Shown here one piece after another: positions 1,114-35,383 of a stretch of DNA of 64,000 nt; positions within the stretch are counted from its first letter, which is position 1; every line of letters begins with the position of its first letter. The DNA lies in contig JAQXGH010000048.1 of the NCBI GenBank assembly GCA_029006195.1, forward strand, positions 62,001 through 126,000, read 5' to 3'. The DNA is from Bacillota bacterium. GTDB lineage: Bacteria > Bacillota > Clostridia > Peptostreptococcales > Anaerovoracaceae. The notes below the pieces were generated by a model that saw only the letters and a list, made by a program, of their open reading frames with translations, had not been told where the DNA came from and ran no database searches. A program made the translations under genes and the position numbers.

Positions 1114-2343
1114 ATGAAAAAAGTTATGATTTTAGGCGCAGGAATATATCAGGTGCCTATTATAAAGAAAGCGATGGAAATGGGATTCGAAACCATCGCA
1201 GTATCTCCAGATGGAAATTATCCAGGCCTTAAAATCGCGGACAAGGTATATAACATCGATGTTCGCGACGGAGAAGCTATCCTGAAAATCGCACGTGAAG
1301 AGGGCATTTGCGGCATTACAACCGACCAGACTGATATCGCTGTCAGAACAGTTGCTTACGTAGCTGAGAAGATGGGTATTCCAGGCATCGGTTTTGAATG
1401 CGCTAAGCTTTTCACGGACAAATACCTTATGCGTACAAAGACTACGCAGCTGGGACTTCCAACTATCCCGTTTAAGATGGTAGGAAGCTATGAAGAAGCA
1501 GAAAGCTTCTTTAAGGAAATTGGTGGAGACGTAATCATAAAGCCTGTGGATAACCAGGGAAGCAGAGGAATTTTTTTTATCAGCAGCATTGAAATGCTGA
1601 AGGATCATTTCGAAGAGTCAAAGGGATATTCGGCATCAGGCAACGTTATTATTGAAAAGCACATCAAAGGTCCGGAATTTGAAGTAGATTCTATCCTCGT
1701 TGATTACGAAGAGAAGACACTTATGTATGCCGATACTGACCTTTATGATATACCTGACGTTTTCGCATCGAGAACTAGGCTTTATCCATCAGTTGCTGAT
1801 GATAAGGTAGTAGAGAAGCTGTTAAAGCTTAACCATGATATTATCACAGGCTTTGGACTTAAGCAGGGCCTTACTCACAGCGAATACATTATGGACGAAG
1901 AAGACGGTGAAATTTACCTTATAGAAGCTGCAGCAAGAGGCGGCGGCTCATTCATCTCTTCTGACATAGCAAGACTTCAGACTGGCGTTGACACATCACA
2001 GTTCCTCATCGAACTGGCAACTGGAACGGCAAAGAGCATACCTGAGTTTGACAGCTGCCTCTGCCACTGCGGATACGTTACCTTCTATTTGCCTGAAGGC
2101 GTAGTAGAAGATGTGACAGGTATCGAAGAAGTTAAAGCTCTGCCATTTGTAAAGAAGCATCTGCTTGATGACATATACGTAGGCCTTGAAACTGAAAGCT
2201 TCAGCGACAAATCTGCTAGAAACGTTATAATTTCAGCAGCTGACTCTAGAGAAGGGCTGCTTGCAAACATCGAAAAAATCAAAGAACTTTTACAGATAAA
2301 AGTTAAAACAACGGAGGGAACTAAAGGACCAATATGGGAGTAG
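1114..2343 (+). CDS. ATP-grasp family ligase
   Basis: ATP-grasp enzyme of 409 residues, the fold that joins a carboxylate to an amine through an acyl-phosphate. A Rossmann-like N-terminus (MILGAGIYQVPIIKKA) resembles carbamoyl-phosphate synthase/PurK-type proteins. The ATP-grasp core follows, with VIIKPVDNQGSRGI near residue 147, EKHIKGPEFEVDS near 185, and LIEAAARGGGS as the metal-binding strand. The substrate cannot be read from sequence. Its place between the Fuc4N aminotransferase and the polyprenyl-phosphate GT2 suggests it may acylate the sugar amine with an amino acid or another acid (inference). It overlaps the next gene by 10 bases, which suggests translational coupling. A clear paralog lies at 6712-7914, also next to a GT2 gene. 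Confidence 0.85.
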   Translation: MKKVMILGAGIYQVPIIKKAMEMGFETIAVSPDGNYPGLKIADKVYNIDVRDGEAILKIAREEGICGITTDQTDIAVRTVAYVAEKMGIPGIGFECAKLFTDKYLMRTKTTQLGLPTIPFKMVGSYEEAESFFKEIGGDVIIKPVDNQGSRGIFFISSIEMLKDHFEESKGYSASGNVIIEKHIKGPEFEVDSILVDYEEKTLMYADTDLYDIPDVFASRTRLYPSVADDKVVEKLLKLNHDIITGFGLKQGLTHSEYIMDEEDGEIYLIEAAARGGGSFISSDIARLQTGVDTSQFLIELATGTAKSIPEFDSCLCHCGYVTFYLPEGVVEDVTGIEEVKALPFVKKHLLDDIYVGLETESFSDKSARNVIISAADSREGLLANIEKIKELLQIKVKTTEGTKGPIWE

Positions 2344-3296
2344 ATAATAAAATTATCTCAGTGGTTGTACCCTGCTATAAAGCAGAGCACCTTTTAAGAC
2401 CATTAACTGAGAGAATTACATCGACTATTAATGCGAGAGAGGGCTATGACTACGAAATAATCTATGTAAATGATAGTCCGTTTGACCAGGGAACAACTGA
2501 TATTATCGATCAGCTTTGCGCTGAAGATAAGAAAATAATTGGAGTACATCAGCTTAAGAACTTTGGTCAGGATATAGCTAGAATCACAGGTATGCATTAT
2601 GCGACAGGTGATGTTGTAATCAACATGGATGATGATGGTGAACATCCACCTGAAGAAATGTTTAAGCTCATCGAGAAAGTCGAAGAAGGATATGATGTGG
2701 TTTATGCAGAATTCGTTCAGAAAAAGCATCCATTCCTCAAGAGAATGACAAGCAGAATCAATGCTAAGGTAATGGATTTTCTGGATAACAAGATGAAGGG
2801 CGTTGATACAACAGCTTATGTTGCATACAGCAAAATCTGCGCACAGAAGATCACTGAATACAAGAGCCCGTTCCCTGTAATCAGTTCATATGTATATCAG
2901 ATAACTGATAAGATGGTGATGGTTCCTATCGTTCACAACGAACGTATCGCTGGCGAAACAGGATACACAACTCTTAAGAGAATTATGCTTGAACTGTCAG
3001 TAATGACTAGCTTCTCAATTAAGCCGCTGAGAGCTTCTGCTTTTATGGGAGTATTAATAGCTTTACTCGGATTTATTTGGGCAATCGTAACTATCATACG
3101 TCACTTCGTAGATCCAGAACTGACTATGGGATACGCATCAATGCTTTCTGTAATGCTTATCCTTGGCGGTCTTATTTTATGTATCCTGGGTCTGATAGGT
3201 GAATACCTGGGAAGAATCTATATGATTATCAATGATAAACCACAGTTTGTTGTAAGGAGAGTAGAGAACAGTGCAGGAACAGAAAAAGAAAAGTAG
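2334..3296 (+). CDS. GT2 polyprenyl-phosphate glycosyltransferase (ArnC/GtrB/DPM1-like)
   Basis: Family 2 glycosyltransferase of 320 residues. The catalytic domain starts with ISVVVPCYKAE and carries the nucleotide/metal motif NMDDDGEHPP near residue 100. Two C-terminal membrane helices (about residues 233-258 and 267-295) end in the GEYLGRIYMIINDKPQFVVRR tail region typical of ArnC, GtrB and dolichol-phosphate-mannose-synthase-like enzymes. Such enzymes move a sugar from a nucleotide donor to undecaprenyl phosphate on the inner membrane face. Because the gene follows wecE and an ATP-grasp gene and precedes two SMR-like genes, the sugar may be Fuc4N or its acylated form (inference). The ATG at 2334 lies inside the end of the ATP-grasp gene behind an ACGGAGGGA ribosome site. 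Confidence 0.88.
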   Translation: MGVDNKIISVVVPCYKAEHLLRPLTERITSTINAREGYDYEIIYVNDSPFDQGTTDIIDQLCAEDKKIIGVHQLKNFGQDIARITGMHYATGDVVINMDDDGEHPPEEMFKLIEKVEEGYDVVYAEFVQKKHPFLKRMTSRINAKVMDFLDNKMKGVDTTAYVAYSKICAQKITEYKSPFPVISSYVYQITDKMVMVPIVHNERIAGETGYTTLKRIMLELSVMTSFSIKPLRASAFMGVLIALLGFIWAIVTIIRHFVDPELTMGYASMLSVMLILGGLILCILGLIGEYLGRIYMIINDKPQFVVRRVENSAGTEKEK

Positions 3297-3657
3297 AGTA
3301 AAGTATTTTATTCTGATGCACTGCGTTCTTCTGTTTTTATCAATAAATGCAGTGTGTTCAAAACAGGCAGCACAGTATGAATGGCTTTCTTTTAAGTGGT
3401 GTTTCTTCTATGCACTGGTAATCTTTTGTCTGGGAGTATATGCCATCGCATGGCAGCTTATTCTAAAGGGGCTTCCTCTGACAGTAGCTTTCTCCAATAA
3501 GGCAGTAGCCATATTCTGGGGAATGTTCTGGGGTGCAGTGCTGTTCCACGAGAAAATAACGATTAAAATGATAATTGCAGCGGCGATAATCCTTACCGGC
3601 ATAATCATAATATCGACGGAAAAGGAGCCTGAAAGCGAGGTGGAGACACATGAATAG
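3271..3657 (+). CDS. Small EamA/SMR-like membrane protein, ArnE-like
   Basis: Protein of 128 residues with four predicted membrane helices, in the drug/metabolite transporter superfamily. The segment LPLTVAFSNKAVAIFWGMFWGAVLFHEKI is typical of a half-size EamA/SMR protein, with the conserved short E-K turn before the last helix (MIIAAAIILTGIIIIS). It starts at a GTG inside the end of the GT2 gene (26-base overlap) and overlaps the next SMR-like gene by 8 bases. The pair therefore resembles ArnE and ArnF, which together flip undecaprenyl-phosphate-aminoarabinose. Its role as half of a lipid-linked-sugar flippase is inferred from that arrangement. An ATG at 3316 is a less likely start because it would remove part of helix 1. 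Confidence 0.75.
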   Translation: MQEQKKKSRVKYFILMHCVLLFLSINAVCSKQAAQYEWLSFKWCFFYALVIFCLGVYAIAWQLILKGLPLTVAFSNKAVAIFWGMFWGAVLFHEKITIKMIIAAAIILTGIIIISTEKEPESEVETHE

Positions 3658-4000
3658 CAGCATGGTCATCTACTCAGGCATATTCATCGCAGGTGTAGTC
3701 ATCTCATCATTCGCACAGATCGCACTGAAGAAACAGGCAATGAAACATTATGATTCATTCCTCCAGCAGTACCTCAATTTCCCGGTAATTGCTGCGTATA
3801 CAGTTTTCTTCGGAGCTACACTTCTGTCAATCGTAGCATACAAGGTAATCCCACTTTCGCTGGGACCGGTACTTGAGTCGACTCAATATTTCTTTATAGC
3901 AGTTCTCAGCTATATCTTCCTTAAAGAGAAGATCAGCAAGAGAAAAATTCTGGGAATATGCCTTATCATATTTGGCATACTTCTCTACGCAATATGGTAA
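3650..4000 (+). CDS. Small SMR/EamA-like membrane protein, ArnF-like
   Basis: Protein of 116 residues with four membrane helices of SMR/EamA type: an N-terminal helix, then QIALKKQAMKHY, a long middle hairpin, and the characteristic LGPVLESTQYFFIAVLSYIFLKEKIS segment before the last helix. Its length and topology match ArnF-like subunits. It is translationally linked to the preceding half-transporter by an 8-base overlap, so a heterodimer is likely. It would act in the cytoplasmic membrane, most plausibly turning over an undecaprenyl-phosphate-linked sugar made by the upstream GT2. A multidrug-exporter role cannot be excluded by sequence, but the gene order argues against it. Confidence 0.77.
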   Translation: MNSSMVIYSGIFIAGVVISSFAQIALKKQAMKHYDSFLQQYLNFPVIAAYTVFFGATLLSIVAYKVIPLSLGPVLESTQYFFIAVLSYIFLKEKISKRKILGICLIIFGILLYAIW

Positions 4001-6711: not shown

Positions 6712-7914
6712 TTATTCGACAATGATCTCAATCTGTTCAAGCGCCTTATTAAGACTATCAACAGCATCATCCAGAGTCTTACCTTCAGTAATTACATGTC
6801 CGATTCTATGAGGTCCAACCTTAAACTTATGGACTTCTTCTCCAATTGCATGGTCGAACTGTACTTCAACGACGCCTTCGATGCCTTCAGTACTGTCTGT
6901 CTGTGACTTGATCTTGCCGTCCTTATCGCTCATGAGAAGCATACTTGCGTTTGGAACGCCGATGCAGTCTTCAGGAGCTGATCCGTCACCAGCTGAGAAA
7001 TCTACTTCTTCGCCGAGTGCAGTTAAGAGGATCTTTTCGTAGTAGTTGTATCCGTAGTAGATAGATACCAGTTCAGCCAGGCATGTTGCGCCTGAACGTC
7101 CGCCGATTTCCAGAACATAGCACTTGCCGTCCTTCATGATGAAGTCAGCGTTGATAGCGCAGTTGTTAAGGCCCATAGCGTCGATTGCGCGCTTTAACTG
7201 AACTCTTGTGTCCTCAACTACTTCTGGTGCCAGATCATATGGTGCGAAGTGGCCGATAGGAACGCCTGTGTCGCCTTTGAACACGTAATCTCCATGTGGG
7301 AGGATGAACTTTATCTCTCCGTCCTTTACGAAGGCCTGAGCGCCGTATTCTTCGCCTTCAACGTATTCTTCAACGATGAAGTAATCTGATCTTGTATTTT
7401 CGAGAACATAATTTCTGGCTCTTTCGAAATCATCTGTTGATGATACCTTAGTGATGCCTCTGCTTCCTGATGAGTCAACTGACTTGAACATTACAGGAAG
7501 TTCAAGATCTGCGATGATCTTAGTGTAATCCTCATCATCAAATGAAATTTTACGGAACTTAGCTGTTCTAACACCGTATTCTTCATACTTTGACTTCATG
7601 AGAAGTTTGTCTGTTGCAATCTGTGCTGCTTCAAATGATAAACCTGTAAGGCCTAAAGTATCGCATACACGACCTATTGTAATAACTGCAACGTCTGTTC
7701 CTGTGGTGATGATGCCATCGATGTTTTCACGTCTGGCGATACTAAGGATCTTGCCGTAGTCAGTTGTATTTTCGTAATATATTTTATCAGCGAGCTCAAA
7801 GCCGGGATAGTTTCCAGGAATGCTGGCTACGATAGTGTAGAGCCCCATCTTTTTAGCCGTATTAATAAGGGGAACCTGATAGATGCCTGCTCCCAGTATT
7901 AATATTTTTTTCAT
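6712..7914 (-). CDS. ATP-grasp family ligase, paralog of 1114-2343
   Basis: ATP-grasp protein of 400 residues, clearly related to the one at 1114-2343. Both start MKK-LILGAGIYQVP and share the GNYPG, DK-LM and GSRGI blocks. Core motifs are MFKSVDSSGSRGI near residue 147, EEYVEGEEYGAQAF near 184, and CYVLEIGGRSGA near 280, which gives the metal-binding Glu. It probably joins an amino group to a carboxylate during surface-sugar synthesis; the substrate is unknown. It is the last gene of the minus-strand operon that begins at 12421, and its ATG overlaps the stop of the GT2 gene by one base (TAATG), so translation is probably coupled. Confidence 0.84.
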   Translation of the reverse strand: MKKILILGAGIYQVPLINTAKKMGLYTIVASIPGNYPGFELADKIYYENTTDYGKILSIARRENIDGIITTGTDVAVITIGRVCDTLGLTGLSFEAAQIATDKLLMKSKYEEYGVRTAKFRKISFDDEDYTKIIADLELPVMFKSVDSSGSRGITKVSSTDDFERARNYVLENTRSDYFIVEEYVEGEEYGAQAFVKDGEIKFILPHGDYVFKGDTGVPIGHFAPYDLAPEVVEDTRVQLKRAIDAMGLNNCAINADFIMKDGKCYVLEIGGRSGATCLAELVSIYYGYNYYEKILLTALGEEVDFSAGDGSAPEDCIGVPNASMLLMSDKDGKIKSQTDSTEGIEGVVEVQFDHAIGEEVHKFKVGPHRIGHVITEGKTLDDAVDSLNKALEQIEIIVE

Positions 7915-8852
7915 TAGGAGTCACCTTTCCTTTCATAAATATTGCGGACAACGAATTGAGGGTTGTTGGTCATTCCCAGATACATTCGTCCGAGATATTC
8001 ACCGATGAGACCCAGGAACAGCATAATCAGTCCTGAGAAGAAGCAAATTGCAACCATCATGGAATACCAACCAACGGCACTTGTAGGTGCCAAGAGCTTT
8101 TTGAGTACAACTGCGACTGCTCCCAGAAGACTAAGAAATGATAAAAACAGTCCCAGATTTCTAGCAACTCTAAGTGGAACGATAGAAAATCCCATAACGT
8201 TCGACCAAAGTCCTAAAAGCTTCTTAAATGTATAGCCTGATTGGCCTTCCATTCTGCTATAGTGCTTGATAGGAACACTAGCTATGTTACGAGTAGTTCT
8301 GAGGAAGATGCCCTGAAGATGAGTGTAATGACTCTTATACTGGATAGCATAATCCCTAACGAACTTTCTGATGATCCAGAAACTTGATGTCTTAAGATCC
8401 TTTGGTTTGCCGATTAAGACTCTGAATGCCATGTAGTTCATCCAGCTGCCGAAATTTCTGAAAGCACTGTGTTTTTTGTCCTGATAGTAACCGTAAACGA
8501 TGTCATATCCTTTCTCGAATTCCTCAAACATAACAGGAAGCTGAGAAGGGTGAGTCTGTCCATCGTCATCCATTGCGATGAGCACATCTCCTTTAGCATA
8601 ATTAAGTCCAGCCATTACTGCGTTATGCTGACCTGCGTTTTGTGCCAGTTCAACAACAGTAACGAAATCGTAATCATCAGCTACAGCTCTGAGTTCGCGG
8701 ATAGTCTCGCCACCATCAGGTGAGAAGTCATCCACTAATACAAACTCATAGGGGACTCTGTTCATCTTGTCAAATTCCTTGCTTGTCATCTCGACAACGC
8801 TTCTGATTGTCTTAGCTGATTTATAACATGGAATTATAATTGAATAAAGCAT
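7914..8852 (-). CDS. GT2 polyprenyl-phosphate glycosyltransferase
   Basis: Family 2 glycosyltransferase of 312 residues with the same design as 2334-3296: YSIIIPCYKSAKTI at the start, AMDDDGQTHPSQLP as the metal motif near residue 93, and two C-terminal membrane helices followed by LGLIGEYLGRMYLGMTNNPQFVVRN. It should transfer a sugar to undecaprenyl phosphate or a similar lipid at the inner membrane face. It sits between the TagH-like ATPase gene and the ATP-grasp gene. With the first operon this makes two GT2/ATP-grasp pairs in one locus. The donor sugar is not determinable from sequence. Confidence 0.88.
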   Translation of the reverse strand: MLYSIIIPCYKSAKTIRSVVEMTSKEFDKMNRVPYEFVLVDDFSPDGGETIRELRAVADDYDFVTVVELAQNAGQHNAVMAGLNYAKGDVLIAMDDDGQTHPSQLPVMFEEFEKGYDIVYGYYQDKKHSAFRNFGSWMNYMAFRVLIGKPKDLKTSSFWIIRKFVRDYAIQYKSHYTHLQGIFLRTTRNIASVPIKHYSRMEGQSGYTFKKLLGLWSNVMGFSIVPLRVARNLGLFLSFLSLLGAVAVVLKKLLAPTSAVGWYSMMVAICFFSGLIMLFLGLIGEYLGRMYLGMTNNPQFVVRNIYERKGDS

Positions 8853-8866
8853 ATGTTAAATTACCT

Positions 8867-9601
8867 CTACTTGCACTTTTCTGTGAACTCAGCAATTGAT
8901 TCCTCAACTGATCCTTCGAATACAACCTTGCCTTTTTCTAATACAATGGCTCTATCGCACATTGAACCTGCGAATGTAAACTGCTGATTACTTGTAATTA
9001 TCATTGTAGCGTCAGGTCTTGCTTCCACCTGCTGCTTAATGAGATCGCGGCACTGATCTCTGGATTCGAGGGTGCCAGTAGAAAAATTAAGGTCTATAAG
9101 CATTATATCCTTTTCCTGAAGAAAATACATTATTAATGCCATTTTATTGGCCAGTCCCTTAGGCGCCTGCTTGAGAGGAACTCTGAGGAACTTTTTAAGA
9201 CCTGCAAATTCTACGATCTCGTCAAAGTGTTCTTTAATAATATCTCGCTTGATGCCGAAAACATTGGCTTTAAGGTAGATATTTTCTTCTGCATTCTGTT
9301 CAACATCGAGACCAGCGTTTGGCGCGATGAGTTCCATAATGCTGCCGTTAACATTTACAGTTCCTGACGTAGGATTTGACAATCCGCAAATCACTCTGAG
9401 GAGTGTAGTGCATCCGGCTTCTGCTCCGCCTAGAACAAGGATTTTCTCGCCTTTTTTTACTTCCATGGATACGTCCTTAAGAGCATGTTTCCTGGATGGA
9501 TTGCCAAGGCCGAATACTAAGCCTGCGAAGCGGCGCATATTGGTTTTGTATAATAAAAAGTCCTTTGAGACTTTATCTAACTTGATGATAGGTTTATCCA
9601 T
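8867..9601 (-). CDS. ABC exporter ATPase subunit (TagH/Wzt type) with degenerate catalytic motifs
   Basis: 244 residues with the layout of a Wzt/TagH nucleotide-binding domain. It has ALKDVSMEVKKGEKILVLGG, then AENIYLKANVFGIKRDII (the Wzt-typical block), then a normal C-terminal half. Every catalytic motif is altered. The Walker A segment reads GGAEAGCTT, with Cys where Lys is required and Glu at the middle Gly. The signature reads APKGLANK instead of YSSGM. Walker B ends IMLIDLNF, with Leu in place of the catalytic Glu. The D-loop reads STGT, and the switch His is Asn (ITSNQQ). The reading frame is intact and the altered codons were checked on the complementary strand. It lies 26 bases after the TagG-like permease gene. 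It may be a structural pseudo-ATPase or may pair with an active ATPase encoded elsewhere. Confidence 0.85.
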   Translation of the reverse strand: MDKPIIKLDKVSKDFLLYKTNMRRFAGLVFGLGNPSRKHALKDVSMEVKKGEKILVLGGAEAGCTTLLRVICGLSNPTSGTVNVNGSIMELIAPNAGLDVEQNAEENIYLKANVFGIKRDIIKEHFDEIVEFAGLKKFLRVPLKQAPKGLANKMALIMYFLQEKDIMLIDLNFSTGTLESRDQCRDLIKQQVEARPDATMIITSNQQFTFAGSMCDRAIVLEKGKVVFEGSVEESIAEFTEKCK

Positions 9602-9627: not shown

Positions 9628-10440
9628 TTACAGGATATCTGGGATATGTTTGATAAATTTCTTATACATGACGATTGATGAGATGATCATTAATACCATC
9701 ATGATCATGTAACAACCCAGCTTCTCAGGTTCCTGGAAGAACCAGATATGTCTGCAGAATGCATTTCTGTATCCCTCTACAATGAATGTGATAGGGTTAA
9801 ACATAAGTACAGTTTTAGCTGTGTGGCTGCTGATGCTGTTCACATCAAACAGGATGGCTGAGAGCCAGAAAAGAGCCTGATTGAGTACCTGAAGCAGGTT
9901 GTAGAAATCTCTGTATATAACAGAGAATATTCCCGTGGCAATACTCCAGAATATCGAAAATACGACCATTAGAATCGAATAAAATGGAATCTGAAGCCAG
10001 TAGATGCTAGGGTAGCAGCCAAATATCAGCGAAATTATGATTCCTATGCCCATCATAATAACGTGAACAAATAAGAAAGATAAAGCTACCGAAGTAGGTA
10101 TTGTAATGATAGGATAGCTTGCCTTGGAAACGATAGGTTTATACCTTCTGAAGCAAGATGCTCCACCAAGTACCATATCCCGCATGTAGAAGAATGCGAT
10201 CATTCCTATGGTAAGCCATACGAAATAAGGGCATATCAGGCCCGGAATATCCTTCGAACTCTTAAATCCGATCGTAATAGCAAAGTAGAATACGAAGATA
10301 TACATAGTAGGCTTAGCAAAAGCCCACACAAAACCAAGGTCAGAACCTCTATAAGTTTTATTGAGGTTTGACTTGGCGAGTTCAAGTGTTTGCTGCCTAT
10401 ATTTGATGTTTGCTTTAACTATTTCTAATAAAGAATGCAT
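9628..10440 (-). CDS. ABC-2 type polysaccharide/teichoic acid export permease (TagG/Wzm-like)
   Basis: Membrane protein of 270 residues with about six helices and the TagG/Wzm/RfbA layout. A basic N-terminal amphipathic part (LAKSNLNKTYRGSDLGFVWAFAKPT) contains the conserved Y-RGS-LG-W segment, followed by the ABC2_membrane core and the NPITFIVEGYRNAF motif near the end. It should form the channel that exports a lipid-linked teichoic acid or polysaccharide. Its natural ATPase partner is the next gene, whose catalytic residues are missing. It follows the M14 peptidase gene by 37 bases in the same operon. Confidence 0.9.
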   Translation of the reverse strand: MHSLLEIVKANIKYRQQTLELAKSNLNKTYRGSDLGFVWAFAKPTMYIFVFYFAITIGFKSSKDIPGLICPYFVWLTIGMIAFFYMRDMVLGGASCFRRYKPIVSKASYPIITIPTSVALSFLFVHVIMMGIGIIISLIFGCYPSIYWLQIPFYSILMVVFSIFWSIATGIFSVIYRDFYNLLQVLNQALFWLSAILFDVNSISSHTAKTVLMFNPITFIVEGYRNAFCRHIWFFQEPEKLGCYMIMMVLMIISSIVMYKKFIKHIPDIL

Positions 10441-10477: not shown

Positions 10478-12421
10478 TTACTGAACAAAGTATTCGCTCA
10501 GGTCGAATTCGCCGATTCCCTCTGAAGGATTGTCTTTTGTGAATCTCTTTATCTGGGCGAGTGTAAGGTACTTTCTCTGTGCCAGTGAGATTTTGTATCC
10601 ATAATTGTCACCGTAATCAGGTTCCATGATTGTACTGATGATGTTGTAGCTTGGCTGATTCATAGGGATCACGTAGCCACCGTAAGTAAATTTGTAAGTA
10701 GCTTCATCGCTTACTGTTGCATTAGCAATTTTACCGCCATACTTGTTTACATCGAGCTTAGTGCCCTTAGGAATCTGGAAATACGTGATGCCAGCCCTAT
10801 CTAATGTCTTGATTGCATTTTTAATAGTGCTTGCCTTCTTAGGTGTAGCGATTATGTATGCAGTAGGTCTGTTTCTTTCTTTTGTTTTGATAGCTCCGTA
10901 AAGGTGCTGGAGGCTTGTTTCATGAATTGTACCATCGAAGTTATATGATGATCTCTCATATGCTATATCGCCCTGATTTCTTACATGCTTATAAGTGAAT
11001 GTGTTATCGTCTGAATAATGGTGGTTGGCGTTAATGCCGTTTTCTCTAGCTAATGCCACTGTTTTCTTGATAACAGATGCGTTTTCTGAGATAAATCTGC
11101 AGGCACTGCTCATTGAGAAGTACTGTGAGTAAACACGTCTTTCGAGATGAGATTTACCTGACTTGATACCAGGAGTTTCAATAGTGAATGCCATAGCATT
11201 CATCATGCCTGCATACATTGTCAGCTTGGCATTGTTCTGCTGAGGCGTTTCTTCTGAATTATTTGTGTATTCAAACGGTCTGAGACCTTCGCTAAAGCAG
11301 TCATTGAATAAAGAATCACGCAGAGCTACAACCAGTTCATGAACAGAATCATCCTGGTTTGCATTCTGGTTATCGCCGAATTCGATATCATCGAGATTCT
11401 TGATGATATTAGCACTTGTATCGACTGAGTCTATTTTAGTGGTACATTCATGGCAGTCAGCGAAAACTTCAGGGTTAAGAGTTCTGATGATACCTTCGAT
11501 GAAGCGAGTTTCGGCATACTTAAATGTGAATGCGTCACGATTAGGGTCGTCGCCGGATTTGTTGAGTCGTGAGAACTTCTGAGCTCCATAGAGGTTAACG
11601 CATGGGATAACGCAGAGGTTCATGTTTTCAGTAAGAGCCTGACCTTCTTCGCCGGCGAACTTAGTGAGTGTATATACAGCACCTTCTGATGCGGCTGGCT
11701 CACTTCCGTGGATCTGTGCCTGATACAACATGTTTACTTTATCTGATGCAGCCAGAATATTCAGAGCGTCTTCCAGGCTTGATGCTGATGAAATATCTTC
11801 TTTAGTAAGAAGAACTACAGGTACTAAGCCATCTGTGAAAACGTGGAAGTTATCGTTTCCTGCTGCCAGATTGTTTATATAGTTCAGACGAGCTGTGTTT
11901 GATGCGAACTGATGCTTTGCCAGACCTTCAGCCATTGAAGGTGTTTCGATTCTTTCATAGTTAGGGAGATATTCTGTAGTAAGCAGAGCTTCGATTTCGT
12001 CATTCCAAAGATATACAGTACTTGTAGGTTCGTAGTTTTTACCGCCAAGTTTTGACATTGTAACGTTTATAGCCTTTGATTCATTAGTCAGATCTTCTGC
12101 GGTTACGCGAAAAACATATGATTCTGTGTAGTAACCCTTAGCCTTGACTTTATAACTGTAAACACCCTCTGACAGATTATATGTTCCTTTAGTAGTGCTG
12201 GATTTCTTCTTCTTAGTGTTCTTGAGAACAGTGCCAGATGCATCCGCCTTGGAGTTAACAGAGATCGTCGCTTTCTTATCTGTCTTAATAGTAACTGCAC
12301 ACTTGGTAGCGGCAAATGTGTATTCAGTTGTTATGCCTATTGCAGTGCAAATCATAGCGATGAAAAGCAATGTGACAAGGGGTCTTATAAAAACTCTGTT
12401 AATATGCATTATTATCTCCAT
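10478..12421 (-). CDS. Secreted M14-family zinc carboxypeptidase with N-terminal PEGA-like domain
   Basis: Exported protein of 647 residues. An N-terminal signal segment (about residues 8-36) is followed by a small beta domain like PEGA (CAVTIKTDKKATISVNSKAD, about 38-125). The catalytic domain has the M14 zinc site: QIHGSEPAASEGAV (HxxE, about residue 235), VNLYGAQKFSRLNKSGDDPNRD, and the third ligand in FADCHECTTK. The likely catalytic Glu is in FTIETPGIKSG. M14 enzymes cut C-terminal residues from peptides, and some hydrolyse peptidoglycan stem peptides. Its location beside an L,D-transpeptidase and polymer export genes suggests cell-wall peptide trimming (inference). It is the first gene of its operon, with a good promoter upstream. 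Confidence 0.85.
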   Translation of the reverse strand: MEIIMHINRVFIRPLVTLLFIAMICTAIGITTEYTFAATKCAVTIKTDKKATISVNSKADASGTVLKNTKKKKSSTTKGTYNLSEGVYSYKVKAKGYYTESYVFRVTAEDLTNESKAINVTMSKLGGKNYEPTSTVYLWNDEIEALLTTEYLPNYERIETPSMAEGLAKHQFASNTARLNYINNLAAGNDNFHVFTDGLVPVVLLTKEDISSASSLEDALNILAASDKVNMLYQAQIHGSEPAASEGAVYTLTKFAGEEGQALTENMNLCVIPCVNLYGAQKFSRLNKSGDDPNRDAFTFKYAETRFIEGIIRTLNPEVFADCHECTTKIDSVDTSANIIKNLDDIEFGDNQNANQDDSVHELVVALRDSLFNDCFSEGLRPFEYTNNSEETPQQNNAKLTMYAGMMNAMAFTIETPGIKSGKSHLERRVYSQYFSMSSACRFISENASVIKKTVALARENGINANHHYSDDNTFTYKHVRNQGDIAYERSSYNFDGTIHETSLQHLYGAIKTKERNRPTAYIIATPKKASTIKNAIKTLDRAGITYFQIPKGTKLDVNKYGGKIANATVSDEATYKFTYGGYVIPMNQPSYNIISTIMEPDYGDNYGYKISLAQRKYLTLAQIKRFTKDNPSEGIGEFDLSEYFVQ

Positions 12422-27666: not shown

Positions 27667-28794
27667 ATGAGCATTAAGTATTCAATTGTTAAAATTGGAA
27701 TAGGCGCTCTTCGTGCATTATATGCACCGATGAAGCTTCAGAAAACCAGAAATAAGGTGGTTTTTATCTCGAGACAGAGTGAGAAACCATCGGTGGACCT
27801 GTTAAAGCTTAGAGACTATCTTGAGAAGAACCATCCTGAGGTAGAAGTTAAGCTTATGGTCAGAATGCTTGAGGGTCACAGCAAGGTAGGATATGCATTT
27901 CACATGATATCCCAGATGATGAATATAGCTTCATCGAAGCTTGTTGTACTTGATGGATACTGCATTGCAGCCTGCATTCTTAACCATAAACCCGAAACGA
28001 AAATCATACAGATGTGGCACGCTACAGCTGCCATAAAGAATTTCGGATATCAGGTGATAAATAAACCTTCAGGCAGAAGCGCAGAAGTTGCGGAGACTAT
28101 GTGCATGCACAGAAACTATGACTATATCATAGCGCCTTCGGAAGTCACTGGTGAGCATTTCTGTCAGGCTTTTAGAGCTGACAGGGATAAACTGAGATTT
28201 TACTGCCTGCCTAGGATCGATGATATTATGGCAGAAGACAGCCAGTTAAATGAGAAAATAAGAAAAGAATATGGACTAGGCGATGATAAGGAGGTAGTGG
28301 TATACGTTCCTACTTTCAGGAGAAATGCTGTGGTTGAAACAAAACCGCTTATCGAAAGCCTTGACCCTGAGAAATATGTTCTTGTGATAAAGCTGCATCC
28401 GCTTGATGAAACAGAGGTGGATACTGAGGGTACTGACCTCAGGGTTATCGCAGACAGAAAGTATAGTTCATACGAATGGCTTAAGGCTGCTGACAGGATC
28501 ATAACTGACTATTCAGCGTTGGGAGTGGAAGCGGCTCTGGTTATGAAGCCTCTTTATTATTACGTATACGATATAGATGAATATAAGGAAGATGTCGGCC
28601 TTAATGTGGACCCACTGGTTGAGCTTCCGCAGATGTCATCGAAGGATGCAGGAGAGCTTGCCAAGATGATGGAAAGGCCTTATGACTTTGATGCCCTCAG
28701 GGCATTCAGAAACCGTTTTGTTTCAGTAGATACAGATAACAGTACAGGGAAACTAGGAGAATTTATCCATGGAATTATTAAAGAAATATCTTAG
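27667..28794 (+). CDS. CDP-glycerol glycerophosphotransferase family protein (TagB-like)
   Basis: Protein of 375 residues with one TagB/F-type domain: VVFISRQSEKPSVDLLKLRD near the start, KIIQMWHATAAIKNFGYQ near residue 112 (the His of the WHxT site), VVYVPTFR near 213, VIKLHPLDETE near 240 and RIITDYSALGVEAALV near 272. Where most members have SSV after DYS it has SAL. Its size suits a priming enzyme such as TagB, which adds one glycerol phosphate to the lipid-linked disaccharide, but that assignment is inferred. Its end overlaps the next gene by 26 bases. Confidence 0.88.
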   Translation: MSIKYSIVKIGIGALRALYAPMKLQKTRNKVVFISRQSEKPSVDLLKLRDYLEKNHPEVEVKLMVRMLEGHSKVGYAFHMISQMMNIASSKLVVLDGYCIAACILNHKPETKIIQMWHATAAIKNFGYQVINKPSGRSAEVAETMCMHRNYDYIIAPSEVTGEHFCQAFRADRDKLRFYCLPRIDDIMAEDSQLNEKIRKEYGLGDDKEVVVYVPTFRRNAVVETKPLIESLDPEKYVLVIKLHPLDETEVDTEGTDLRVIADRKYSSYEWLKAADRIITDYSALGVEAALVMKPLYYYVYDIDEYKEDVGLNVDPLVELPQMSSKDAGELAKMMERPYDFDALRAFRNRFVSVDTDNSTGKLGEFIHGIIKEIS

Positions 28795-30013
28795 GAAATT
28801 TTTGATGAATCACGCAAGTCTGCGAGTTTTCGTGAGAAAGATTCATGTTGCACTTAAGAAAAAGAAATTTGAGATGGCAGCATCTGGCGCAGAAATAGAT
28901 AAGAAGCTGGTGATTTTTGAAACTTTTATGGGAAGACAGTACGGCTGCAATCCTAGAGCTATATACGAATATATGCTTAGCGACGAAAGATTCGATGATT
29001 TCACTTTCGTGTGGGTGCTTAATGACGAAGGTAAAGTCAAGGAATTCCCTCAGCTTGAAAGAGCTAAGGTAGTTAAGCTTAGATCAGACGAATACTATAA
29101 GTACTATGCAACCGCAGGTTATGTTATTACAAATTCAAATCTTGACTACGGTATCGCTAAGCGTGATGGTCAGAAATTCCTGCAGACATGGCATGGAACT
29201 CCGCTTAAGAGACTCAGATGCGATATCGAAGCCGAAGAAGGCAATGCTCTGAATTCACTTGAAGAAATCAACCAGAAGAATGATCTGGACGTTAAGAGAT
29301 ATGATTATTTCATCTCACCATCTGCCTTCAGTACAGAGAAGTTCCGCAGCGCTTTTAACTTAACTAATCTGGGACTTGAAGATATCATAATCGAAACAGG
29401 CTATCCTAGAAATGACCTGCTCTTTAAGTTCGATGAAGAGTATGCTGCGAAAATAAAAAGTGATCTGGGAATTCCTGATGACAAGAAGGTTATTCTTTAT
29501 GCGCCTACTTTCAGAGACAACCAGCATGACGGAAGCGGCTACACATATAAGACAGAAGTTGATTTTGATAAGCTTAGAAGAGAGCTTTCTGATGAATATG
29601 TAATTCTCTTTAGAGCTCATTACTTTGTTGCCAGTCAGTTTGATTTCGCAAGCTACAAGGGCTTCGTAATAGACGCATCAGGACTTGATGACATCACACC
29701 GCTTTATACAGTAGCTGATCTTCTGATTACAGACTACTCCAGCGTATTCTTTGATTACGCTAACCTTAAGAGACCTATGTATTTCTATATGTATGACCTT
29801 GAGGATTATGCTGATAATATCAGAGGTTTCTATATCGATATAAACGAACTTCCTGGACCTATCATTCAGGAAGAGGATGAGCTTATCAAGGCAATAAAGG
29901 CAGGAGACTGGTCATATGATGATAAGTATAAGGCCTTCAACGAAAAGTACAATTATCTTGATGATGCCTTTGCCAGCAAGAGAGTTGTGGATATTCTGAT
30001 AGGAGAAGAATAG
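28769..30013 (+). CDS. CDP-alditol phosphotransferase (TagF/TarL-like), tandem copy 1
   Basis: Protein of 414 residues. Family motifs are FETFMGRQYGCNPRAIYEYM near residue 50, FLQTWHGTPLKRLRCDIE near 133, VILYAPTFRDNQ near 234 and LITDYSSVFFDYANLKRP near 318. WHGTPLKRL and DYSSVFFD are the usual donor-binding and catalytic blocks of glycerol- or ribitol-phosphate polymerases. It is very close in layout to the next gene, so the two arose by tandem duplication. It starts inside the previous gene and ends one base before the next ATG, which points to coupled translation. Glycerol versus ribitol preference cannot be read. Confidence 0.9.
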   Translation: MELLKKYLRKFLMNHASLRVFVRKIHVALKKKKFEMAASGAEIDKKLVIFETFMGRQYGCNPRAIYEYMLSDERFDDFTFVWVLNDEGKVKEFPQLERAKVVKLRSDEYYKYYATAGYVITNSNLDYGIAKRDGQKFLQTWHGTPLKRLRCDIEAEEGNALNSLEEINQKNDLDVKRYDYFISPSAFSTEKFRSAFNLTNLGLEDIIIETGYPRNDLLFKFDEEYAAKIKSDLGIPDDKKVILYAPTFRDNQHDGSGYTYKTEVDFDKLRRELSDEYVILFRAHYFVASQFDFASYKGFVIDASGLDDITPLYTVADLLITDYSSVFFDYANLKRPMYFYMYDLEDYADNIRGFYIDINELPGPIIQEEDELIKAIKAGDWSYDDKYKAFNEKYNYLDDAFASKRVVDILIGEE

Positions 30014-30014
30014 G

Positions 30015-31256
30015 ATGAAGCTCAGCACAAAGATCAAAAATACATTAACAACTAAAGTGCCGTTCATGAAGAATACTGTTCAGGGAATGGCTGATGCTAA
30101 AAACCACAGAAGATATCTGAAGGCAGCGGTAGATCCTGTTGACGATAAGCTTATTCTTTTCATGTCATTTATGGGCAAGAAATACGCAGACAGCCCTAGA
30201 GCTATCTACGAATACATGCTCTCAAGTGACGAGTATAGGGACTATAAGTTCGTATGGGCTTTTGTTCATCCTGACAGATATCCACAGGTTGCAGCAAATC
30301 CTCAAACTAAGGTAGTTAAACTGAATTCGGACGAACATTACAAAATCTATGCAACATCAAAGTACTGGGTCACTAATTCCAGAGTTCCAGATGTTATAGA
30401 TAAGAGGGAAGAACAGGTTTATCTTCAGTGCTGGCACGGCACGCCTCTAAAGAGGCTTGGCCTTGATATCGAAGTCAAGGGAGCTAATGCCAGACATTCT
30501 GCCAGCGATATGGGTGAAAAGTACAGAATAGATGCCAGGAAATATACATACATGGTATCTCCGTCACCATACTGCACAGAGAAATTCACTTCCGCATTCG
30601 GTCTTGACGAGGTAGGAAGGGAAGACATAATCGTGGAAACTGGCTACCCTAGAAACGATGAACTGGCAGAAGTATACGACAGCCAGATCGAAAGCTTAAA
30701 GGATAAACTGGGAATCCCGCAGGATAAGAAGGTTATATTATACGCTCCGACTTGGCGCGATAACCAGTACGATGCTACTGTAGGCTATACATATAAAGAA
30801 GAAGTGGATTTCACTAGACTACGGGAGAGTCTGGGAGACGATTTCATAATCCTTTTCAGAGCTCACTACTTCGTTTCAAACGCATTCGATTTCGAGAAGT
30901 ATAAGGGTTTCGTATATAACGTTTCTGATTATGATGAAATCAATGATCTGTACATCGTTTCAGATGTGCTTATGACAGACTATTCGAGCGTATTCTTTGA
31001 CTATGCTAACCTGAGAAGGCCGATAATCTTCTTCATGTATGACCTCAAAGAATATCGCGATACAATAAGAGGCTTTTACATCTCACTGGATGAACTTCCA
31101 GGACATGTAATCGAAACAGAGGACGAACTTATCGAAGAGCTTAGGGCTCTTGATGGCTGGCAGCCTGATGATAAGTACAAGGCCTTCAATAAAAAATTCA
31201 ACCCTCTCGATGACGGTAGCGCCAGCGAAAGGGTTGTGAAAAGATGCATTGGTTAG
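30015..31256 (+). CDS. CDP-alditol phosphotransferase (TagF/TarL-like), tandem copy 2
   Basis: Protein of 413 residues and a sister of the preceding gene: LFMSFMGKKYADSPRAIYEYM near residue 49, YLQCWHGTPLKRLGLDIE near 135, VILYAPTWRDNQYDA near 236 and VLMTDYSSVFFDYANLRRP near 320. It should elongate or cap an alditol-phosphate chain. It is the last gene of the TagD operon. Its stop codon overlaps the stop of the convergent YfhO-TagF gene by three to four bases, and no terminator hairpin lies between them. Confidence 0.9.
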   Translation: MKLSTKIKNTLTTKVPFMKNTVQGMADAKNHRRYLKAAVDPVDDKLILFMSFMGKKYADSPRAIYEYMLSSDEYRDYKFVWAFVHPDRYPQVAANPQTKVVKLNSDEHYKIYATSKYWVTNSRVPDVIDKREEQVYLQCWHGTPLKRLGLDIEVKGANARHSASDMGEKYRIDARKYTYMVSPSPYCTEKFTSAFGLDEVGREDIIVETGYPRNDELAEVYDSQIESLKDKLGIPQDKKVILYAPTWRDNQYDATVGYTYKEEVDFTRLRESLGDDFIILFRAHYFVSNAFDFEKYKGFVYNVSDYDEINDLYIVSDVLMTDYSSVFFDYANLRRPIIFFMYDLKEYRDTIRGFYISLDELPGHVIETEDELIEELRALDGWQPDDKYKAFNKKFNPLDDGSASERVVKRCIG

Positions 31257-34200
31257 TGTTTCTTTAATAATTTCTCAAGCGGTGTTTGCGGCTGATCAGG
31301 AAGTCCGATTATCTTGTCGACCTTCATATTGCCGAAACATCTTTTCCACTCGAGTATCCAGTCAGCAGGCTTCTTGCCTGCTGTTTGCATTTTACCAGCT
31401 CTAGGGAAGTAGCTGATTCCTTCAGGAAGATCAAGAAGCGACTTAAGATCATCCTTCATATCATTCTTATTGAATACGAGGAAATAGTTAGCTTCGTCAG
31501 GGTCAAGATCCTTTACCAGAGCGCTGATATCAGCGCCTTTAGCTGCGTAAATCATAACGTTTGGCTTGCCGTTTGACGGCATATCATATTCTTTACCGCA
31601 TGGTGTGCCAAAGAATACTCTCTCGCAAAGGCTGGAAGCTGCGTCTTTTGAATCATAATTACAGTACTTCTTAATGAATTCACTATCATCATAATTTTTA
31701 GGGCTTCTCGCTTCTTTAATAGCTTCAGCTGCTGTCTTAACCTGAGGGAAAGGCAGAGTGTCTATTGGACTGTAAAGTCCTCTAGTGCTGAGATAGTCAT
31801 CAGCATCATATGTATAAAGAACGATCTTTCTTCCTGTAACTGCATAATCATAGAATACACTTGAGTAGTCTGTAATCAGACAATCAGCAGCGTTAAGGAA
31901 TTCATAAGTTTCGTATGTCTTAGGAAATGCCTTAATGTTTTTGAACTGGCTGTAGTCGACCTGGTCTGCTGCCAGAGGGTGAACCTTAGCAAACAGAACT
32001 TCGCCTTCGCTTAGACTATCATCCATCTGTTTCAGAACATTTACCAGAGTCTGTCCCATAAGTGCAGGTCTATGAGTAGGCATGTAAACATATATTTTCT
32101 TGCCTTCAAGGCCCTGTTCTTTTATTATTTCTTCTCTTCTTTCGTCATCAAAGAATGCTGAGTTTCTAGGGTACCCAGAAAGAATAATCTTAGCTGAGCT
32201 GGCGTTTTCAAGCATGTAGTCGTTTACCATATGCTCCATCATATATTCGTTAGGGTAGAGGAGATAATCAGCTATTACAAAGTTCTTCTGAACGTTGCCT
32301 GTAGCATGAGGTTCGTGCTTTACCTTTCTGCCCATAACCTTGAATGGAGTACCATGCCAGAGGTTAAGATAAATCTGTTTATTCTTCTTGATAAAGAAGT
32401 TCTTAAGTGATGCGTCGCAGATAATATACTTGGCAGTTGAAAGTGCTCTGTAGTATTTATCTGTATCTACAATAAGTATTTCAGGCTTTCTTGGCATTGC
32501 ATCTAGCTTCTGTCTGATTACCGCTGCTGTTTTCTCGTCTTCTGCTGATACTTTGATATTAAAGTCCTTATACTTATCGTTTGTTAACAGCTCCTTTGCC
32601 ATATAGAAGACATTGCCATCGATTTCCTTGCCATTTCTGGCTTCAAGGAATACTGCAGATTTATCTACCGGCAGGTTCATGTAATCTGCAAAATTTTTTT
32701 TTCTTCTTCTGTGCTGGATGGCAATGAGTATTGTAAGAATGATGCCGATAATAGTTGCGATTATTCCCAGCTTAAGTGATACGTTGTTATACTTAAGCTC
32801 AACATCATGCTGTCCCTTTGTAACCTGAACGCCAAGGAATGCCATATTGAGGTTCTCGATCTTATCTACCTTTTCGCCATCAATGTAAACATCCCAGTTA
32901 GTGTACTGAGGTATTGAGAAGTAGATGATTCCGTCATCAGTTGCATTAACTGTACCTGATACATGCTTGTCATCATATTCTGCGATTTCATACTTCTCGA
33001 GCATTCTCTGCTGTGCGTACTTGTCGTAGTTATCTACAGACATTGCTGTGATGTACATGTCGCCAAGTTCATATTCGCCTTCGTGGTTGATATCGAATGT
33101 GAGTGTGCCATCAAAGTTTTCGTAGTATCCCATATTCATATCGAAGTCTTTGATTCCTGGGATGCACTGGTTGCTGTGTCCTGTATGAATTACCTCTTCA
33201 AGTCTGCCGTCATTACATGTAACAGAGAATGACTTGTCATTTGTCTTTATGAGTCCGTCAAATGATACTATCAGCTGGCAGTCATGTACAGGATTAACCT
33301 TAACTGTGAATGTTGAATGTTCCTTGCTTGTAATGATCTTGCCATCCTTGAATTCGAGACCGTCCTGATCGATGATTTCGAATGGTACATTCTTTGTATC
33401 TGTCTCTATGTCAGCTGCTGTTACCTGAGTGATGTTTTCGCTTATTTCAGAAACCATATCGTCAGGAACTACTGCAGCCTGGAGCAGAGCCTGTTCTCGT
33501 TCGTGCTTAGTGAGCTTCATGAATTCGCTTTCTGACATGAATTTGTCATAAGCGAATCCGAGCCCTGGATCGTACTTGTTCTTATAAACGTTTACGCCGT
33601 CGATGGTATCCATATATGAGAAGCCGTATCCTGCATAAGCGTCTGAACCGGTGATTCCAGCCTTTGCATCATCGCCCATAAAGTACTTGACGCCATAGAG
33701 GAAGTCGAGGCCCATACGGTTGTCGTTTGAAATGAGATATACTCTCATGAGGTAACCGTAGTTGTTACCCAGCGCCTTGTTGAATTCCAGCTGCTTGGAT
33801 GAAGTAAATGAATCGTATACGTAAATGCTCTTTGACTGCCACCAGAGGTTTTCACTGACTGGCATTTCCATTCCGTGATGGAAGTTGATCCAGTCTACCT
33901 GGTCAGTTCTATAGAAACCGTCATCCTCCAGCATTGGGTTTACTCTCTGACATGATTTTGAAAGCTGGTCATCAACTTCGCCTATATCGATGAACTTGTT
34001 CTGATAAAGGTAGAAACTTACTGACCAGTTGAGTGCCAGTGTACAGCCAATGATGACAAAGCAGGCAATCTGCCTGTAGATGACTTTGATCTTATCGTTT
34101 TTGAATCCGATTACGATAAGGAGTGCCAGACCAGCCATGAGGTTGAGTGTAATGAAGAGTGCACCTCTGTTTGAAAGGCCTGTAATATTAATAAAGTCGA

Positions 34201-35383
34201 ATCCCAAAGTCCATACAGCTAGGATTACAAGCCATATGAACATTACAATGAGGTTTTTCTTGTTTCTCAGTTCTTCCACGTCCAGTACTTCTGCAGAAGC
34301 CCAGATTGCGAAGAATACCAGCATTACATACCATCTGCCTGTTCCGTAACTGAATCCGTTGAACATTCTGCTGAAGAATGGGAAGAATGTCATTAAAATG
34401 AGGATCGCTGTCATGAGAACGCTGGTGTTCTTAAGTGAGAATTTCTTAAAGGCTATTGGCAGTGCCATAAGGGCGAAGATAGGAATACCGAAATATGTAT
34501 ATCCTGTTGTGAGTCCCCATGTCAGGAGCATCTTGCCGTAACGGATGAAGAAATGAACATCATTTACAAGATCCAGAGGACCTGCTGATGAAGAATCTGT
34601 TGATGCTCTCATTGTTGCCAGAATGAACTGGATGCAGAACATTGCAGATATCATACCGGCAATGAGGCCATAAATTACGAATTTACCTATAGTTCCCAGA
34701 TACTCTTTGATCTTGAAATCATCGTGATATGCGAAGTATCTGAGCAGCATAAACAGGATTGCCACGATAGCAGCCATATATGCTAAATATGTATCTCTAA
34801 TGAGGAAGTAAGCAACTGTAACGATAAAAAGAACCGGTGATTTGCCTCTGTATATCCAGTCGATTGAGAGGAATACAAGAGGGAACATAAATGAAATGAA
34901 GATGAATGAACTCTGAATCATCGTTACATTTATGAACCATGTTGAGAAGATGTAGCAAATTGTTCCGGCGAGGCACTTGAAGTTTGAAAGCTTCATTTCA
35001 AACAGGAAGTACAGGAATGCCAGTCCTCCAAAGTACAGCTTAAGCAGCAGTGAAAGAGTGATGCCCAGTTCCAGCTTGCTCATAGGGAACAGAGCAGCAA
35101 ACAGGTTGAATGGGTCTAATCTGTAAAGGTACTGCATGCCCAGGCCTCTTGACCAGTTCCACTGCGGCAGTCCGTTTCCGCTCATTACAGATTCTATAAT
35201 GTGCTTAATTTCAGCTGTCCAGAAATAACCCTGTCTGAAACCGTCACCATGCTGTATAAATGACTTTCCCAGTAAAATAAATACCGAAAAAACACCTAGT
35301 GCTATCACTGCGAATAGTATTGTGTAGTAGAGCGTTAAAACTCTAAATTTCAATGGTTTATCGTTTAAGTTTGTTATCCTCAT
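31253..35383 (-). CDS. YfhO-like membrane protein fused to a CDP-glycerol glycerophosphotransferase domain
   Basis: Giant protein of 1376 residues. Residues 1-460 hold about a dozen membrane helices of YfhO type (SVMSGNGLPQWNWSRGLGMQ, then RLDPFNLFAALFPMSK). Residues 460-880 form a large outside beta-rich domain with a closing helix (about 860-885), also as in YfhO. YfhO-family proteins are implicated in decorating lipoteichoic acid with sugars. Residues about 900-1290 are a TagF-type domain facing the cytosol: YLNLWHGTPFKVMGRKVKHE, IYVYMPTHRP and CLITDYSSVFYDYAVTGRK. The last 90 residues (NVMIYAAKGADISALVKDL onward) look like the start of a further Rossmann domain that ends early. It may couple inside polymer synthesis with outside glycosylation (inference). 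Confidence 0.85.
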   Translation of the reverse strand: MRITNLNDKPLKFRVLTLYYTILFAVIALGVFSVFILLGKSFIQHGDGFRQGYFWTAEIKHIIESVMSGNGLPQWNWSRGLGMQYLYRLDPFNLFAALFPMSKLELGITLSLLLKLYFGGLAFLYFLFEMKLSNFKCLAGTICYIFSTWFINVTMIQSSFIFISFMFPLVFLSIDWIYRGKSPVLFIVTVAYFLIRDTYLAYMAAIVAILFMLLRYFAYHDDFKIKEYLGTIGKFVIYGLIAGMISAMFCIQFILATMRASTDSSSAGPLDLVNDVHFFIRYGKMLLTWGLTTGYTYFGIPIFALMALPIAFKKFSLKNTSVLMTAILILMTFFPFFSRMFNGFSYGTGRWYVMLVFFAIWASAEVLDVEELRNKKNLIVMFIWLVILAVWTLGFDFINITGLSNRGALFITLNLMAGLALLIVIGFKNDKIKVIYRQIACFVIIGCTLALNWSVSFYLYQNKFIDIGEVDDQLSKSCQRVNPMLEDDGFYRTDQVDWINFHHGMEMPVSENLWWQSKSIYVYDSFTSSKQLEFNKALGNNYGYLMRVYLISNDNRMGLDFLYGVKYFMGDDAKAGITGSDAYAGYGFSYMDTIDGVNVYKNKYDPGLGFAYDKFMSESEFMKLTKHEREQALLQAAVVPDDMVSEISENITQVTAADIETDTKNVPFEIIDQDGLEFKDGKIITSKEHSTFTVKVNPVHDCQLIVSFDGLIKTNDKSFSVTCNDGRLEEVIHTGHSNQCIPGIKDFDMNMGYYENFDGTLTFDINHEGEYELGDMYITAMSVDNYDKYAQQRMLEKYEIAEYDDKHVSGTVNATDDGIIYFSIPQYTNWDVYIDGEKVDKIENLNMAFLGVQVTKGQHDVELKYNNVSLKLGIIATIIGIILTILIAIQHRRRKKNFADYMNLPVDKSAVFLEARNGKEIDGNVFYMAKELLTNDKYKDFNIKVSAEDEKTAAVIRQKLDAMPRKPEILIVDTDKYYRALSTAKYIICDASLKNFFIKKNKQIYLNLWHGTPFKVMGRKVKHEPHATGNVQKNFVIADYLLYPNEYMMEHMVNDYMLENASSAKIILSGYPRNSAFFDDERREEIIKEQGLEGKKIYVYMPTHRPALMGQTLVNVLKQMDDSLSEGEVLFAKVHPLAADQVDYSQFKNIKAFPKTYETYEFLNAADCLITDYSSVFYDYAVTGRKIVLYTYDADDYLSTRGLYSPIDTLPFPQVKTAAEAIKEARSPKNYDDSEFIKKYCNYDSKDAASSLCERVFFGTPCGKEYDMPSNGKPNVMIYAAKGADISALVKDLDPDEANYFLVFNKNDMKDDLKSLLDLPEGISYFPRAGKMQTAGKKPADWILEWKRCFGNMKVDKIIGLPDQPQTPLEKLLKKH

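Follow-up and report, generated by a model that had tools for sequence, protein, structure and literature searches.

The gene at 8867..9601 (minus strand) of the window, by which we mean the whole stretch of 64,000 nt analysed here (positions 62001-126000 of contig C48), encodes a degenerate TagH/Wzt-like ATPase subunit of 244 aa (P0001), as identified by sequence and fold matches. Taking the evidence jointly, our best reading, put forward tentatively, is that this gene is one member of an ancient and conserved group of ABC exporters of the teichoic-acid type (TagGH/WzmWzt kind) whose motor is dead as judged by its residues, and that this hydrolysis-dead lineage may act as a gate or scaffold within the same teichoic-acid-like pathway.

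The open reading frame is intact, with an ATG start and an AGAGG ribosome-site-like stretch. The protein matched Pfam ABC_tran with 50.7 bits, and the TagH and Wzt models, although matched below their cut-offs, were its best named relatives (for the TagH model NF010066, 93.5 bits under a curated cut-off of 320 bits). Among solved structures its sequence matched WzmWzt, TarH and TagH. The best of these matches were to the WzmWzt O-antigen/galactan exporter, whose Wzt subunit has intact motifs and hydrolyses ATP. The AlphaFold2 model, which was built on a shallow alignment with six rows and has a mean pLDDT of 69.9 with residues 1-39 unreliable, returned the Bacillus subtilis TagH domain 7dd0 as top Foldseek match (TMq 0.80) and closest ABC fold, followed by WzmWzt folds. 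The intact frame and the preserved Wzt-like scaffold claimed in the initial annotation are confirmed. Some Wzt proteins bear a C-terminal sugar-binding domain, for which the window subunit is too short.

The catalytic motifs have changed throughout. The Walker A remnant GGAEAGCT (residues 58-65; 9407..9430, minus strand) reads G58-GAEAG-C64-T65, with Cys64 for the Lys. At the signature position (residues 145-150; 9152..9169, minus strand) the alignment placed QAPKGL instead of YSSGM, within a region reading QAPKGLANKM where relatives read YSSGMKARL. In the Walker B and D-loop segment (residues 166-177; 9071..9106, minus strand) Asp170 is kept, Leu171 replaces the Glu (LID170-L171) and Thr177 replaces the D-loop Asp (STG-T177). 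Asn205 stands for the switch His (8987..8989, minus strand; TS-N205-Q), in a column that was set by the aligner because one residue is inserted after Asn205. The protein therefore lacks the Walker A Lys, YSSGM, the Walker B Glu, the D-loop Asp and the switch His. The four losses named initially (Lys to Cys, Glu to Leu, His to Asn and the absent SSGM) are all real, and that of the D-loop Asp comes in addition. According to two papers (PMC7078476, PMC11971408), TarH possesses Walker A, Walker B, YSSGM, the D-loop Asp175 and His201; the TarH motifs are intact, whereas the window lineage is without most of them. Together with WzmWzt, the wall teichoic acid flippase TarGH/TagGH is the nearest known system; the window pair resembles it in having adjacent genes for permease and TagH-type subunit and a teichoic-acid-like neighbourhood.

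A TagG/Wzm-like permease of 270 aa (9628..10440, minus strand) is indeed encoded next to the ATPase gene, as had been noted, 26 bases upstream of it; the permease belongs to a permease clade in which a degenerate ATPase lies beside all 23 members placed. The permeases of the window and of genome G072 had no Pfam match at E 0.01, and the one intact-type permease scanned (G265) matched ABC2_membrane with about 60 bits. The ATPase gene is followed after 14 bases by the next gene of the probable operon, a PgfS/ArnC-like family 2 glycosyltransferase gene (7914..8852, minus strand), which overlaps by one base with a gene for an ATP-grasp ligase (LAL_C2; 6712..7914, minus strand). A gene for an M14-like protein, probably secreted judging from its N-terminus (10478..12421, minus strand), precedes the permease gene at a distance of 37 bases. 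Since these five genes share one direction, a common operon is likely. ATP-grasp-like and glycosyltransferase-like genes occur twice in the window (1114-3296 and 6712-8852), and the copies cluster together. At 3271-4000 there are two small adjacent genes, the second of which covers most of the EamA profile, in an arrangement that presumably recalls ArnE/ArnF-type flippases. Further away, three genes with Glyphos_transf matches (TagB/TagF-like polymer genes; 27667..31256, plus strand) and a 1376-aa open reading frame with a fourth such match (31253-35383, minus strand) are found; the four matches lie at about 27.7-32.7 kb. The window also has a LicD gene. Judged by these matches, the segment 27667-35383 is a teichoic-acid-like polymer cluster. 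The initial statement that the window holds no other ABC ATPase is correct for ABC_tran matches, as the other ones on the contig (at contig positions 11927, 132031, 132955 and 139195) all lie outside 62001-126000.

A permease query was run against 349 genomes of the family and gave matches in 140, and the ATPase frame beside each match was collected. From 176 permease open reading frames in the fetched loci, 35 repeats were dropped: 32 were genes that had been retrieved a second time, and three (the intact pair of G184, G150 and G281; all intact) equalled another genome's permease over the compared stretch. Of the 141 left, those of G141 (contig end) and G194 were dropped; for the G194 permease (L136:1301-2134) no ATPase-like open frame was found in the following 1.3 kb. 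Among the resulting 139 distinct permease-ATPase pairs, 113 ATPases were intact and 23 lacked two to five of the five positions scored (Walker A Lys, second signature Ser, Walker B Glu, D-loop Asp and switch His). The remaining three comprise G001 and one G285 row, both cut by contig ends, and G040, which has one change and was not called degenerate. Adjacency of ATPase and permease in the 22 pairs other than that of the window is given by construction, and broken copies would not be counted because open frames only were collected. The 23 degenerate pairs are spread over 22 genomes, which belong to six genera of the family: seven in g1 including the window, one in g17, two each in g18 and g20, four in g72, and seven pairs from six genomes in g82. 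G214 alone has two of the degenerate pairs (L160, L179), and the search for intact TagH found none in this genome. The TagH model NF010066 was matched by all 23 degenerate ATPases at E <= 1e-10 (best 8.6e-50).

A permease tree with 85 rows separated all 23 from the rest by a single branch (SH-aLRT 99); this takes one label change, compared to a mean of 20 in shuffles. The 23-member clade was recovered in a careful permease tree of 58 rows (100/99; 100% of 200 bootstraps) and in an ATPase tree of 56 rows from which the motif columns had been removed (100/100). The trees are unrooted; we infer that intact motifs are ancestral because they are present in 113 of 116 pairs outside the clade and in all 24 ATPases examined outside the family. 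The latter stem from a class-wide search with the degenerate permease profile, which matched 76 of 391 genomes: the best 30 of the 76 loci include 29 besides the window, 26 of them with an ATPase in the flank, and the 24 such ATPases outside the family are all intact. At three class-wide loci (G827, G727, G895) no ATPase was found in the flank covered. With the A3 profile, run over 393 genomes of the order, the scores of the g72 and g82 degenerate types overlapped those of intact ones, hence the permease tree was used for separation. A contig search for relatives of the window locus yielded six loci at 22-35% identity, the best one intact, and in 2654 plasmid records all matches were below 60% identity.

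Sequencing error or chance as the cause of the lost motifs is rejected, because the 23 loci form one clade; that an error was unlikely had been held from the start and is borne out. A check of homologues, as proposed there, found the losses of the switch, signature and D-loop residues to be shared by all or nearly all members of the clade.

Compared with the 113 intact relatives, the switch His, the first signature Ser and the signature Met are present in none of the 23 degenerate ATPases, and the second signature Ser in one. The Walker A Asn is found in 0/23, the D-loop Asp in 1/23 and the Walker B Glu in 10/23, while the Walker A Lys position is occupied by Arg in 13, Lys in seven, Cys in two and Val in one. 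The loss is therefore not equally complete, with seven members keeping the Walker A Lys and ten the Walker B Glu. The Walker B Asp, the P-loop Gly63 and the Ser/Thr after the Lys position are kept in 23/23, and the A-loop position, tentatively assigned by comparison with Tyr14 of TarH (PMC11971408), is Tyr or Phe in all. Mean retention in the degenerate lineage was 10% for eight catalytic columns, 57% for 67 other conserved ATPase columns and 77% for 42 conserved permease columns, and eight columns drawn at random were as low as the catalytic ones in none of 20,000 draws. Hence the residues that serve hydrolysis and the ATP sandwich were lost in preference to others. New common states have also appeared: Asn21 in 22/23 (the window included), Ala at the position of Cys72 in 17/23 and Lys144 in 18/23, and in genus g1 the signature reads APKG in five of seven degenerate members. 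A strongly acidic C-terminal end, defined as nine or more Asp/Glu among the last 20 residues, occurs in 12/23 degenerate versus 0/114 other ATPases; the window ATPase has no such tail. Open frames of 231-297 aa were present at all 23 loci. The shortest belongs to G265 (L046:795-1487), the only g1 genome in which a degenerate pair is combined with an intact one; there the degenerate ATPase ends early, after 231 aa.

This pattern bears on the idea that nucleotide still drives the subunit as a switch, or that it is a slow ATPase of an unconventional kind, with Arg (13/23) taking the place of the Lys and other residues those of the base and switch. The complete retention of Gly63, Ser/Thr, Walker B Asp and an aromatic A-loop, a basic Arg or Lys at the Lys position in most members and the Walker B Glu in ten would agree with it, but the signature Ser, D-loop Asp and switch His have been lost together in nearly all, so that the ATP sandwich should be removed, and the Lys position can also hold Cys, as in the window, or Val. 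We consider this idea unlikely.

Whether the lineage is under selection was addressed for 11 pairs of degenerate ATPases. The NG86 values (dN over dS) were 0.172/3.80, 0.197/3.25, 0.251/2.05, 0.256/1.52 and 0.312/2.62 for five pairs from genera g72, g18 and g82, corresponding to ratios of about 0.05-0.17 that are rough because dS is 1.5-3.8; YN00 gave a dN/dS of 0.21 for one pair. For the other six pairs, including all four of g1 with the window's among them, dS was saturated. Selection on the degenerate ATPases is thus purifying where measurable, that is, in five pairs, none from the window's genus. Relative to its own permease, the ATPase has a median dN ratio of 2.0 across the 11 degenerate pairs; for 12 intact pairs the figure is 0.95 (p 0.0002 by Mann-Whitney, with pairs sharing species). 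In the ATPase tree no branch is longer than that of the window's protein (1.85). Constraint acts on the lineage, though less than on intact ATPases, and it is perhaps weakest for the window's copy.

These figures also weigh against a decaying gene or an assembly artefact, which we regard as very improbable. Intact relatives do exist, the ATPase outpaces its permease, and the long branch of the window copy and the short G265 copy might be taken for erosion. Against this stand the open frames at 23/23 loci in one clade, the dN/dS values far below 1 in the five estimable pairs, and derived residues that are conserved, such as Asn21. The initial annotation had named intact homologues in neighbouring species combined with a dN/dS near 1 as signs of decay: intact homologues were found, but as a separate clade, and dN/dS was far below 1 in the five pairs, while the window's own dS is saturated. 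Decay of the lineage is rejected on the same two grounds, the single clade and the low dN/dS.

An ATPase encoded elsewhere could join the permease, either by itself or dimerised with the degenerate subunit. Heterodimeric exporters in which one site has degenerated are familiar: PMC7756269 lists TM287/288, TAP, CFTR and Pdr5 as having one degenerate nucleotide site, and they resemble the present case in that catalytic residues were lost and fold and function kept. They differ in that these transporters keep one consensus site within a heterodimer or full transporter, whereas each locus of the window lineage has one subunit gene, so a homodimer would carry two degenerate sites. The genome of the window has 43 ABC_tran matches, and the genomes are incomplete, which leaves room for a partner.

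We queried all 22 degenerate-bearing genomes, whose completeness is given as 71-99%, with an intact TagH that G265 encodes (P0002). No intact TagH-like protein turned up in 20 of the 22; this search for a second, intact nucleotide-binding partner covers the TagH subfamily only. Intact TagH was detected solely in G265, where the query matched itself with 524 bits, and in G184, with 341 bits. The orphan intact TagH that the initial annotation had proposed to look for was not found in the window's genome. Two control genomes with intact pairs scored 357 and 421 bits, degenerate ATPases 121-196, and everything else at most 96. In nine of 10 genomes the best remaining ATPase lay beside, or was fused to, a multi-helix membrane protein (the exception being G252; by crude hydropathy). 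Both pair types occur together in two of the 22 genomes against 7.2 expected (hypergeometric P 0.0085, not corrected for kinship). The lack of an intact TagH in 20/22 and the separate membrane partner of the best remaining ATPase in 9/10 disfavour an active ATPase pairing with the permease in trans, as had been suggested initially, and we judge it quite improbable.

To our knowledge, at least one consensus ATP site remains in characterised ABC exporters. Among the literature matches listed, taken from titles and the beginnings of abstracts with most subscription journals outside this scope, no fully degenerate TagH/Wzt lineage was found.

Gene neighbourhoods were compared between the 23 degenerate and 11 intact pairs; as the stretches differ in length, all counts are lower bounds. 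Glyphos_transf genes were located near at least 14/23 degenerate and 9/11 intact pairs, LicD near at least 6/23 and 3/11, ATPgrasp_ST near at least 7/23 and 3/11, IspD/TarI-like cytidylyltransferase near at least 2/23 and 2/11, LCP ligase genes near at least 3/23 and 6/11, and the glycosyltransferase/ATP-grasp pair of the window type near at least 4/23 and 3/11, respectively. At the genome level, Glyphos_transf genes occur in 19/20 genomes with the degenerate pair only, in 14/14 congeners examined with an intact pair (of 26 such congeners) and in 7/16 congeners with neither. In the one exception, G016, no Glyphos_transf gene was found. The difference between 19/20 and 7/16 has a Fisher p of 0.0017 with genera mixed, and within g1 the comparison of 6/6 with 7/16 gives p 0.046. 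In three g72 genomes (L185:2567-7469, L182, L183), genes for an Asp/Glu racemase, a Mur-ligase-like protein and a D-Ala-D-Ala-ligase-like protein lie near the degenerate pair; the Mur-ligase-like protein carries leucine-rich repeats in the one scanned.

Genus g72 offers a direct comparison. The degenerate pair of G336 and the intact pair of G334 are located between the same flanks, where eight genes are 50-90% identical; the threonyl-tRNA synthetase (ThrRS) is 90% and LCP 59% identical, but the permease 40% and the ATPase 44%. G072, which is degenerate, also shares flank genes with G334 (58%, 65% and, for LCP, 65%). Both G072 and G130, the latter degenerate as well, carry genes that match those around the intact pair of G333, at 64-65% for Glyphos_transf, 74-77% for ATPgrasp_ST and 61-66% for a third gene, with permeases at 39-40% and ATPases at 38-43%. 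The most clear-cut instance of a shared slot, G336, has a Glyphos_transf gene with only 38% identity to its counterpart in the intact G333. The degenerate pair in g72 occupies the slot of the intact pair.

The pair might also have ceased to transport and serve as a membrane platform for polymer enzymes, the polymer leaving through a Wzx-like flippase. Polysacc_synt (Wzx/MurJ-like) matches were indeed found in 21/22 degenerate-bearing genomes, in some cases on the same contig, and may point to a second way out for the polymer; the faster evolution of the ATPase relative to its permease and the acidic tails would be in line with such a platform. Yet Polysacc_synt matches were equally present in the 18/18 intact-pair genomes examined (55/56 across all sets), the conserved permease columns are kept at a mean of 77%, and the degenerate pair replaces an intact exporter in the same slot. 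We hold this alternative to be unlikely, although it deserves some weight.

We return to the reading of a hydrolysis-dead exporter lineage. It draws on the single clade in both trees, the purifying selection in the five measurable pairs, the selective loss of residues, the lack of intact TagH in 20/22 genomes, the similar neighbourhoods and the g72 slot; it is weakened by the Walker A Lys and Walker B Glu that some members retain, by the Polysacc_synt matches in 21/22 genomes, by the lack of a Glyphos_transf match in G016 and the low identity of that gene in G336, by the lower frequency of LCP genes near degenerate pairs, by the permeases having diverged too, and by the window copy being long-branched and without an acidic tail or a usable dS. 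A scaffold or regulator role of the subunit would fit it. The degenerate subunit would fold as an ABC domain and dock on the permease, probably as a homodimer, and going by its residues ATP hydrolysis would be absent, whereas nucleotide may still be bound weakly through the retained P-loop Gly, Ser/Thr, Walker B Asp and A-loop aromatic. It may then constitute a fixed gate and a docking platform for polymer enzymes, possibly involving the acidic tail where there is one, while the permease would stay the conduit for the lipid-linked polymer and polymer movement would be coupled to synthesis or to outside attachment instead of ATP cycling. Taken to its full extent, that is, an exporter lineage moving a lipid-linked cell-wall polymer without ATP hydrolysis, with the motor as fixed gate or assembly platform and the work supplied by synthesis inside or attachment outside, the proposal is doubtful, though far from negligible.

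The annotation 'ABC transporter ATP-binding protein' can conceal inactive motors, and the lineage represents a natural experiment on what ATP hydrolysis does in polymer export. If the polymer indeed moves without ATP hydrolysis, the motor of this transporter class would be dispensable, because the degenerate pair replaces an intact exporter beside closely related polymer genes.
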